Origin: Prochlorococcus sp. AG-355-I20
GTDB lineage: Bacteria > Cyanobacteriota > Cyanobacteriia > PCC-6307 > Cyanobiaceae
Assembly (NCBI GenBank): GCA_003280895.1
Contig: QCDM01000002.1
Span: 1 to 64,000, forward strand
Reading direction: 5' to 3'
DNA: 64,000 nt
Part shown: positions 27,266 through 36,351 of the stretch, one piece after another
How positions within the stretch are numbered: position 1 is the stretch's first letter
Layout of the letters: each line of letters opens with the position of its first letter
The notes under the pieces: model-generated
What the model was told of the DNA's origin: nothing
Databases searched by the model: none
Seen by the model: the letters and a program-made list of their open reading frames with translations, nothing else
Translations under genes and position numbers: made by a program

Positions 27266-27700
27266 TTAAACTCTGCTATAACCAAATTTTGTTTTAAAGA
27301 TCTTATATGGAACTCCTGTTCTGTTCATGGCTTCAATAACTTTATCTCCCACAGTTCCGTAAAATTCAACAGAAAGATCAGACCCCAGTTCAGCATGAGC
27401 CTCAAGATAAATACCTAATGCTGGATTAGCTAAATGAGCTAGTAAAGCATCATCATTTTTATAAACTTCTGACCATACGAAACGAAGAGGATCATCAGGG
27501 TCTTGATCAAAAGTATGATGGAGCATTCCTGGTTCGTCAGCTTCAACAGCTTTATCTGTCTTATCTGCAATTTCTAAGTATTCTGCAACCTTATCTTCCT
27601 TAACTTTAAGTTTTGCAAGAAGTATAAATGGAGTGTCTGATCCAAAACTAGACATAAAAAAAAGACTCTTGCGAGCCTGAGTGATGGGGATTTCCATCAT
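27266..27700 (-). CDS. Antibiotic biosynthesis monooxygenase (ABM)-like dimeric alpha/beta barrel protein; start may be 27655
   Basis: DTPFILLAKLKVKEDKVAEYLEIADKTDKAVEADEPGMLHHTF..WSEVYKNDDALLAHL. Confidence 0.75.
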   Translation of the reverse strand: MMEIPITQARKSLFFMSSFGSDTPFILLAKLKVKEDKVAEYLEIADKTDKAVEADEPGMLHHTFDQDPDDPLRFVWSEVYKNDDALLAHLANPALGIYLEAHAELGSDLSVEFYGTVGDKVIEAMNRTGVPYKIFKTKFGYSRV

Positions 27701-27757
27701 GACAAATTAATTAGAAACAAACAACTCCACCAATAGTAAATTTTTATTACTTACAAA

Positions 27758-27771
27758 CACTATATGTAGTG
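27758..27771. promoter_or_regulatory. Palindrome CACTA-TATG-TAGTG upstream of the putative sRNA
   Basis: Perfect 5-bp arms; followed by extended -10-like TGCTAGGAT. Confidence 0.45.
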
Positions 27772-27780
27772 CTAGGATTT

Positions 27781-27845
27781 TAAAAAGGCCGGGTGATGGG
27801 GATTATCCTGCTTTTTGACTGGGGCGAAGATATCGCCCTTTTTTT
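27781..27845 (+). ncRNA. Putative small RNA of about 65 nt
   Basis: -10-like TGCTAGGAT upstream, GC-rich core, terminator GGGCGA-AGATA-TCGCCC-T7 (27822-27845). Confidence 0.5.
27822..27845 (+). terminator. Rho-independent terminator
   Basis: GGGCGAAGATATCGCCC followed by TTTTTTT. Confidence 0.8.
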
Positions 27846-27993
27846 ATGGGTATAATTTTCTAATAGCTTCTTGTTGTTCTTGTTTTTTTATTTCTTCAGC
27901 ATCATAAACAGGAAAAGTATTCTGATTAAGTGATGAGAAAAAAGCACTTTTTTTAAAACGTTTGAATATAGGAATCAATAATAAAAGTTTCAT
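27844..27993 (-). CDS. Candidate 49-aa small protein
   Basis: MKLLLLIPIFKRFKKSAFFSSLNQNTFPVYDAEEIKKQEQQEAIRKLYP. Confidence 0.45.
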   Translation of the reverse strand: MKLLLLIPIFKRFKKSAFFSSLNQNTFPVYDAEEIKKQEQQEAIRKLYP

Positions 27994-28495: not shown

Positions 28496-28774
28496 TTAAA
28501 AATAACTGGATATAACCGTTGAATCGTAAATATGACCTGCACTCTCAATTAATGGTTTCACTGCAGGATCTTCAAACATAGCTATTGATTTACCTTCTTC
28601 ACCCTGCTCAATTAGAATTACATTTGTTGGATCATCTTTATTTACACCTTTGTATAAGCAAATAATTCCGCGCTCTTTATTCATTTGTATATTTTCTTCG
28701 CTGTCATAAACCGCAGCCCACTTTTCAAAAGGGACGCTAATTTTGAATGTGAAAACGGTAGTTTCAAGAGACAT
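28496..28774 (-). CDS. DUF3764-like small protein
   Basis: MSLETTVFTFKISVPFEKWAAVYDSEENIQMNKERGIICLYKG. Confidence 0.65.
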   Translation of the reverse strand: MSLETTVFTFKISVPFEKWAAVYDSEENIQMNKERGIICLYKGVNKDDPTNVILIEQGEEGKSIAMFEDPAVKPLIESAGHIYDSTVISSYF

Positions 28775-28821
28775 AATAAGAAGGAGCTAATTGCTCCCTA
28801 TTCTAGATAGAATGTCAATAA

Positions 28822-29169
28822 TTAAGAAAAAACTGGTGGATAAGGTGTTTGTCCATTCATTAATGATTTGTCAATTGGTTTACAGATATTCATCAGAGCA
28901 TCTTGTCCGAAACCTGGACCAGAGGGACCGTCTATAAACTCCTGAAACTCCTCAGCTGAAATACCCTCTTTTACTTCCCAAAAACAATATAAAGGACCAT
29001 TTTTAGTTACGGCATTTGCAGAATGGTTAAAAAATCCTTTTTCTTTATTAGCTGCTACCGCATCATCCCATCCACCACCAGGTGACATTGCCGCATAAGC
29101 TGTTTCCCACCATTTTTCAGCTTTTCCTGCCTTAAATTCATGATGAACGATATAAAAAGTGGATGCCAT
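28822..29169 (-). CDS. Conserved hypothetical protein, ABM/ferredoxin-like fold suspected
   Basis: TFYIVHHEFKAGKAEKWWETAYAAMSPGGGWDDAV..GPLYCFWEVKEGISAEEFQEFID. Confidence 0.6.
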   Translation of the reverse strand: MASTFYIVHHEFKAGKAEKWWETAYAAMSPGGGWDDAVAANKEKGFFNHSANAVTKNGPLYCFWEVKEGISAEEFQEFIDGPSGPGFGQDALMNICKPIDKSLMNGQTPYPPVFS

Positions 29170-29249
29170 AAAAATAATATTTGAGCTGATAATAAAGTTA
29201 CTTGATATAAGTAAAGAGATGATTATTTTATTTTGAATTCCTAAATAAA

Positions 29250-29270
29250 AAGGGGGCTAAAAGCCCCTAG
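29250..29270 (-). terminator. Rho-independent terminator downstream of the 29300-29653 gene
   Basis: On - strand GGGGCTTTTAGCCCCCTTTTT. Confidence 0.75.
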
Positions 29271-29299
29271 CGATCGACTGTCAATATATACAATCTAAA

Positions 29300-29653
29300 T
29301 CAGAATCCAGATATTGCTTCATAGAAATCAGCGTCTGGCAGTATTTCCTTCAAGGGTTCAATCTCCTTGGGAGGGCCTTGGACCTGGACAGTAATATCTG
29401 ACACTTCAAAAAGCTTGGGAATCATATGTCCCATATTTTTGAGATGAAATAAAGCGGCGGCACCATCTTTATATGCCTCTCTTACATAAGCCTTATCTGA
29501 ACCGCATGTAGTGATATTAAAAAAAAGGCAGTCAGGTTCATTAGCTTTTGTCAGTACCAAAATTTCTTCTAAAAGAGCTATGCACTGGTCCATCTTCCCA
29601 TCCTTGATTGTGAAGTGGGGATGGATAGAAACCATGGTTGTATCTAGAGACAT
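29300..29653 (-). CDS. ABM-like dimeric alpha/beta barrel protein
   Basis: SIHPHFTIKDGKMDQCIALLEEILVLTKANEPDCLFFN..REAYKDGAAALFHLKN. Confidence 0.7.
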   Translation of the reverse strand: MSLDTTMVSIHPHFTIKDGKMDQCIALLEEILVLTKANEPDCLFFNITTCGSDKAYVREAYKDGAAALFHLKNMGHMIPKLFEVSDITVQVQGPPKEIEPLKEILPDADFYEAISGF

Positions 29654-35949: not shown

Positions 35950-36351
35950 ATATTTGATTTCCTTCTAAGGATATAAAATTACATATTTTAAAGTCTATTT
36001 ACTCATAAACCTAGAATACGTGAATTCGGGGATTTCTCTCGATAATCTCAGTCCCTATTGTCGCTAGTAATTATAAAGCGAAGTCTTATCAGACTAATTG
36101 ATTGAACTTTAATTTTCGAATAATCCCATTCTCAGGAATACACTTCCTATATTTTGGAATTTGCTAAATTTCAGGCGGACTATCAATCATTTAGATTGCC
36201 TCCGAACTCAACATTTATAAATTACTCCTTTTTATATTTTCAGTAAATCCGTAAATATGCTGATTTACTTTTTTCTTAATTTGTAAGAGGATTTTAATGA
36301 TTCTTTGTTTTTTATAGATAAATAAAAATAATAAAGTCTATAATCTCTTAG

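Follow-up and report, generated by a model that had tools for sequence, protein, structure and literature searches.

What a short, terminated transcription unit beside an ABM-domain gene might regulate is the question raised by a 194-nt block of the window, the whole 64,000-nt stretch of Prochlorococcus DNA that we analyzed. The original prediction placed here a small plus-strand RNA with an antisense match to the start of the ABM gene, and the elements on which it was built are present in the window: the repeat GTGATGGGGATT at 27681-27692 and 27793-27804, the palindrome CACTATATGTAGTG at 27758-27771, the extended -10-like TGCTAGGAT at 27770-27778, and a strong plus-strand terminator, GGGCGA-AGATA-TCGCCC-T7, that ends at 27845. 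Our results partly confirm that observation and partly support its interpretation: a compact predicted plus-strand sRNA at ~27784-27845 and a conserved match both stand, whereas the ABM gene does not hold up as the target, as the unit adjoins other genes elsewhere. The features are as follows.

27656-27849, no strand: twin sRNA unit, a 194-nt conserved block between two outward-facing terminators
27784-27845, plus strand: plus RNA, ~62 nt, a GGGG-loop hairpin then a terminator; predicted mimic of the RpoD4 start, with a predicted 5' end
27787-27804, plus strand: mimic stretch GGCCGGGTGATGGGGATT, matching the RpoD4 start of the same genome, GGCCAGGGTGATGGGGATC
27821-27845, plus strand: plus RNA terminator GGGCGA-AGATA-TCGCCC-T7, conserved in the plus-arm alignment A1
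27770-27778, plus strand: extended -10-like TGCTAGGAT for the plus RNA, conserved in the aligned copies as TGCTARGAT or a similar form; putative role
27758-27771, no strand: palindrome CACTATATGTAGTG, candidate operator
27656-27691, minus strand: minus RNA, ~36-40 nt, a 5' seed then a terminator, with a predicted 5' end
27680-27692, minus strand: antisense seed AATCCCCATCACT; TCCCCATCAC in 55 of 66 copies and TCCCCATCAT in 9
27656-27678, minus strand: minus RNA terminator AGGCTCGCAAGAGTCT-T8, conserved in alignment A2; its U-run abuts the ABM start codon
27696-27724, minus strand: predicted minus promoter (-35 TTGTTT at 27724-27719, 17 nt, extended -10 TGT-CATGAT with the -10 at 27701-27696)
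27725-27731, minus strand: GGTGGAG, directly upstream of the minus -35; GATGGGG in most copies, conserved in the unit and the solo gene (below); putative role
27266-27655, minus strand: ABM-domain gene with corrected start; a probable neighbor rather than the target

The unit recurs across Prochlorococcus

Strong matches to 27640-27850 are present in ~80 of the 101 Prochlorococcus genomes searched, often two or three in each, and the secondary copies mostly span query positions 17-210, which correspond to 27656-27849, i.e. from terminator to terminator. A second copy in the same genome, on contig 16, is 88% identical, and the MED4 copy lies at 348776-348983 (Yfr10 is at 346661 in that genome). 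The aligned copies occupy at least three genomic settings, in which the unit adjoins the ABM gene, is flanked by a DUF3303 gene and an 87-aa gene that has no Pfam match, or adjoins an 82-aa gene. In one 97% complete genome (G094) blastn did not find the twin unit, though the solo gene and the RpoD4 start are present. Carriage of the unit by phages was considered and rejected: phages gave no blastn match to it, and the 14 + 2 exact short matches in viral contigs sit in contexts that differ from the unit and are without its terminators.

Two degenerate remnants were also seen. One, at G022:C1:694781-695010 (L096), has a weak plus-arm match beside a minus-arm-like stretch, and the other, at MED4 772390 (L075:890), is a non-coding AGTGATGGGGATTTTT adjoining GCCGAGCCT. 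Twin units lie near small genes in two settings: in the window, small ABM-like and DUF3764 genes follow the unit (28496-29653), and at class B the DUF3303 gene adjoins its left flank (L027). At class B loci (L025, L027, L032 and others; element end +190) the 87-aa gene starts directly after the plus-arm U-run (TTTTTTTATGGAAAAATTTAC) with ATG or, in some copies, GTG or TTG, an arrangement that mirrors the T8-ATG of the ABM gene at the opposite end of the class A unit. The terminators may be read through into these flanking genes.

Two divergent RNAs are predicted

The unit is predicted to encode two divergent RNAs, a minus RNA of ~36-40 nt and a plus RNA of ~62 nt. The plus RNA folds with z scores of -2.8 to -6.1, and 92.3% of its hairpin pairs are kept in the copies, compared with at most 69% in slid controls. 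A covariance model of the plus arm (R1) matched 16/16 genomes with E ~1e-20 or better, and the next matches had E 6e-4 or worse. The 11-mer GGTGATGGGGA is exact in the plus arm of 63 of the 66 distinct unit copies. In the other genera that were inspected, the plus arm consists of a GGCCG..GAT-GGGG-ATC..CGGTC hairpin and, after it, a second hairpin that resembles a terminator. Upstream of the plus arms at L188-L199 (genera g31 and g52), TTGACA stands five nucleotides before a TANNNT box, where 17 is usual; this TTGACA falls within a partial palindrome, TTGACA..TGTCA, and the promoter layout is unusual. A 19-aa ORF through the hairpin, which had been suggested as another explanation of the plus arm, is not conserved, having 4 codons in MED4 and 22-24 in other copies.

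On the minus strand, TCCCCATCAYC and the hairpin are near-invariant in 35 aligned copies, and the promoter layout recurs in the solo sRNA gene. A generic promoter scan of the window did not call the predicted sRNA promoters, which are weak by consensus. We also considered a long minus RNA that starts upstream of GATGGGG, as this word can pair with CCCCATC, but did not retain it, since in the solo gene this word immediately precedes a -35-like box. Within the same genome the palindrome CACTANNNNTAGTG is found only in the twin unit and the solo sRNA gene; MED4 has two further CACTANNNNTAGTG palindromes, at 531520-531533 and 996207-996220 (L305, L310), one of which is also present in G041. Being common to both sRNA genes, the CACTATNTGTAGTG palindrome may be the site of a regulator.

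The ABM gene most likely starts outside the unit

According to the original prediction, 27681-27692 formed codons 3-7 of an ABM gene starting at 27700. The 144-aa ORF from that position traverses a minus-strand terminator that had been missed, and in 19 ABM loci the T-run between the minus hairpin and the ATG at 27655 is 6, 7, 8, 9 or 10 nt long, so that the upstream frame is not kept; the unit also stands without an ABM gene. In the long ORF, Pfam places the ABM match from residue 24 onward, beyond Met16, which is 27655. Because the upstream frame is not kept and the domain begins after that methionine, the gene most likely starts at 27655, outside the unit, and 27681-27692 would belong to a separate divergent RNA. 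The shorter match TGGGGAT near the start of the other ABM-like gene (29616-29622) comprises only 7 nt of the word, and searching the window for the 12-mer at up to 2 mismatches does not recover it.

The two arms are complementary beyond chance

The complementarity between the arms was examined in 66 distinct copies. At least 11 contiguous pairs join the minus seed and the plus arm in 64 of them, 45 keep 16, and shuffled plus arms reach a mean of 5.6; across copies, arm complementarity thus exceeds chance. Within the window alone the signal is not significant, since there are 4 matches to the 12-mer at up to 2 mismatches and 18 of 100 shuffles also reach 4. Conservation of the pairing wherever the hairpin is kept had been named beforehand as a check, and it is seen here for a predicted sRNA-sRNA pairing; because complementarity is kept in strains that keep the hairpin, a local duplication fossil, the other explanation once offered for the repeat, is excluded. 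The 66 copies hold no usable compensatory change between seed and target because both are nearly invariant.

The word is shared with a solo sRNA gene and the RpoD4 start

Other occurrences of the word were sought by genome-wide pattern searches. Ten complete genomes have four to six exact GGTGATGGGGA matches each. In MED4 these are the two twin arms, 936798 and 1632703: the former is the complement of the word within a conserved sRNA-like ‘solo’ gene (936679-936849), and the latter lies across the start codon of a sigma-70 gene (AAGAGGCCAGGGTGATGGGGATCC) that contains the published primers for rpoD4 = PMM1697 (PMC2921402). The distribution is the same in the genome of the window, where exact matches lie in the window plus arm, the contig 16 copy, a solo gene on contig 3 and RpoD4 on contig 8; the minus arm in the window differs from the word at one position. 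In three genomes, the examined sites with up to one mismatch include no translation start other than that of RpoD4. One complete genome (G050) carries one more exact match, which falls within an open frame.

The solo gene has the form TTCCCCATCACC-YGGCC..hairpin..T7, would give an RNA of ~45 nt and is present in ~80 of 101 genomes. It has a layout in common with the minus arm: palindrome, ~33-36 nt, GATRGGG(G), TTG-type -35, 17 nt, -10-like box, seed and terminator. The RpoD4 start is found in ~85 of 101 Prochlorococcus genomes. Over the family, the 24-mer AGGAGGCCAGGGTGATGGGGATCC at up to 3 mismatches is present in 77 of 151 genomes, which represent 40 of 59 genera, mostly with zero mismatches (reversed control, 1 match), and the plus-type word CGGGTGATGGGGATCA at up to 1 mismatch in 111 of 151 genomes from 53 of 59 genera, with at most 6 per genome (reversed controls, 2 matches). 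Larger-genome genera of the family are without the RpoD4 24-mer, yet some of them have plus-type words, so the co-occurrence of word and start is imperfect. A class-wide search did not find the RpoD4 start word in the sampled genomes outside the family.

The RpoD4 start itself folds into a GGGG-loop hairpin, CCAGGG.GAU-GGGG-AUC.CUCUGG, of the same kind as the plus arm. In this hairpin 91% of cells are paired, compared with at most 64% in slid controls, and one A-U to G-C double change occurs among what are only 14 distinct sequences. RpoD4 codon 2 is GGG at every locus examined, compared with 14% of the other RpoD4 glycine codons; of these loci, the 29 from the genus were identified by 191-nt similarity, and the motif played a part in the selection of those from other genera. 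The start hairpin itself could explain part of the conservation.

A predicted antisense and decoy system for RpoD4

Taken together, we favor a reading in which the minus and solo sRNAs repress translation of the group-2 sigma factor RpoD4, and the plus RNA, a mimic of the sigma-factor start, sponges them; we give it a probability of about 0.6. The minus and solo RNAs would carry the seed UCCCCAUCACC near the 5' end, followed by a terminator only, and would pair with the hairpin that holds the SD and start codon of the RpoD4 mRNA (AGGAGGCCAGGGUGAUGGGGAUCC), blocking its translation. The plus RNA would copy this start site, including the GGGG-loop hairpin, and serve as a decoy, relieving RpoD4 by titration of the antisense sRNAs. 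One regulator at the common palindrome may set the balance between antisense RNA and decoy. What the analysis establishes is the sequences themselves, how they are conserved, their near-exclusive occurrence, their fixed orientation and their predicted pairing; from these we infer transcription, pairing in cells, the direction of regulation and the regulator.

Several findings bear on this reading. The predicted minus and solo RNAs have the conserved seed, complementary to a specific mRNA start (RpoD4), that marks a trans-acting antisense sRNA, and the predicted plus RNA has the target-site copy that marks a sponge or target mimic. The solo seed of the same genome, UCCCCAUCACCCGGCC, is perfectly complementary to the plus RNA over 16 nt and is predicted to pair with the SD/start region of RpoD4 across one bulged A. 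The predicted interaction gains are -21.8 kcal/mol for the solo RNA with RpoD4, -18.4 for the solo with the plus RNA, -16.9 for the minus RNA with RpoD4 and -15.1 for the minus with the plus RNA. More tentatively, at somewhat less than an even chance, we suggest a Cyanobiaceae-wide RNA toggle, in which a sigma-start hairpin is under the control of 5'-seed antisense sRNAs and divergent, co-encoded, multi-copy decoys, and a palindrome-binding regulator picks which of them is made.

Four other explanations were weighed. The arms could be cis-acting leaders with attenuators for the flanking genes, with pairing between them tuning read-through and leaving RpoD4 aside. The U-runs do abut starts (T8-ATG at the ABM loci for the minus arm, T7-ATG at the class B 87-aa gene for the plus arm), and the ATG/GTG/TTG substitutions at the class B start fit such a role; however, the flanking genes vary by locus, the minus arm of classes B and C ends at least 100 nt from the next start, and the solo gene and the RpoD4 start have the word outside any such setting, which makes this explanation unlikely. 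We consider it a little less probable still that the plus RNA mimics the structure of the RpoD4 hairpin so as to titrate an RNA-binding protein, by a CsrB-like logic with the antisense RNAs secondary: the GGGG-loop hairpin is common to plus arms and the RpoD4 start across genera, but this would leave unexplained why the minus arm and the solo gene conserve an antisense seed. A DNA-level protein-binding site that lies in these genes by chance would suit a word as short, conserved and rare as GGTGATGGGGA. The word, however, always lies downstream of a predicted transcription start, adjoins the terminators in the minus and solo RNAs, and is surrounded by hairpin pairs that are conserved. Its sense is fixed: RpoD4 and the plus arms have the sense form, and the minus and solo RNAs carry the antisense form at their 5' end; this argues for a role at the RNA level and makes a DNA site very improbable. 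Equally improbable is the original model, in which the plus RNA acts on the ABM gene cluster as a riboregulator: the sequence to which it is complementary, immediately before the true ABM start, is a predicted terminated sRNA, non-coding for ABM, that recurs without the ABM gene.

Relation to known RNAs

In bacterial sRNA sponges and target mimics, a decoy RNA that carries the target sequence titrates an antisense sRNA. The proposed antisense and sponge system for RpoD4 differs from sponges in general in that the predicted decoy and antisense RNA are divergently co-encoded and multi-copy, and in that the decoy copies a sigma-start hairpin. The nearest known case is Yfr1/Yfr10-Yfr2 (Cyano-1) of MED4, sRNAs with complementary motifs in which Yfr2 RNA counteracts Yfr1 on mRNA (PMC6778093). 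Both systems comprise short, Hfq-independent cyanobacterial sRNAs with complementary motifs and a sponge-like logic, but they differ in motif, loci, targets and Rfam families, and Yfr1 and Yfr2 do not form a single divergent unit, nor is either reported to copy a sigma-factor start. PMM1697, once among the predicted targets of Yfr1, is listed as a pseudo target (PMC3142192).

Rfam 15, including Cyano-1/Yfr2, Yfr8 and Yfr10, gave no family at the gathering threshold over 27656-27849 or at the solo and twin loci tested, and the same search recovered the known Yfrs in those tested loci; low-score matches to SraG and AaHKsRNA20 were at chance level and were rejected. The MED4 twin (348776-348983) and solo (936679-936849) loci are absent from the Yfr8-Yfr21 list in Table 1 of Steglich 2008. 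Identity with Yfr103, a highly expressed ncRNA, was rejected on length (290-328 nt compared with the predicted ~36-62 nt). In the literature searched we found no description of the regulatory link proposed here; the transcripts themselves may have been seen before.

All five sigma factors of MED4 show diel cycling of their transcripts (PMC2663038), and the strain has few regulatory proteins and lacks Hfq (PMC2518516). If the proposed control is real, antisense-plus-decoy regulation of one sigma start would offer a direct way into the question of how a cell this streamlined times its gene expression, and would provide a reason, beyond protein-coding need, for the near-invariant 24-nt start region. 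Post-transcriptional control of sigma factors in marine picocyanobacteria would become testable with a simple reporter.

The unit also resembles the Yfr8/Yfr9 antisense pair (RF02360; PMC2518516), another case of paired ncRNAs in Prochlorococcus, but Yfr8 and Yfr9 overlap on opposite strands, whereas the twin arms do not overlap and have a complementarity of just ~11-16 nt. A Yfr8/9 homologue (RF02360, 256.6 bits) lies at 35987-36212 of the window, 8 kb from the twin unit.
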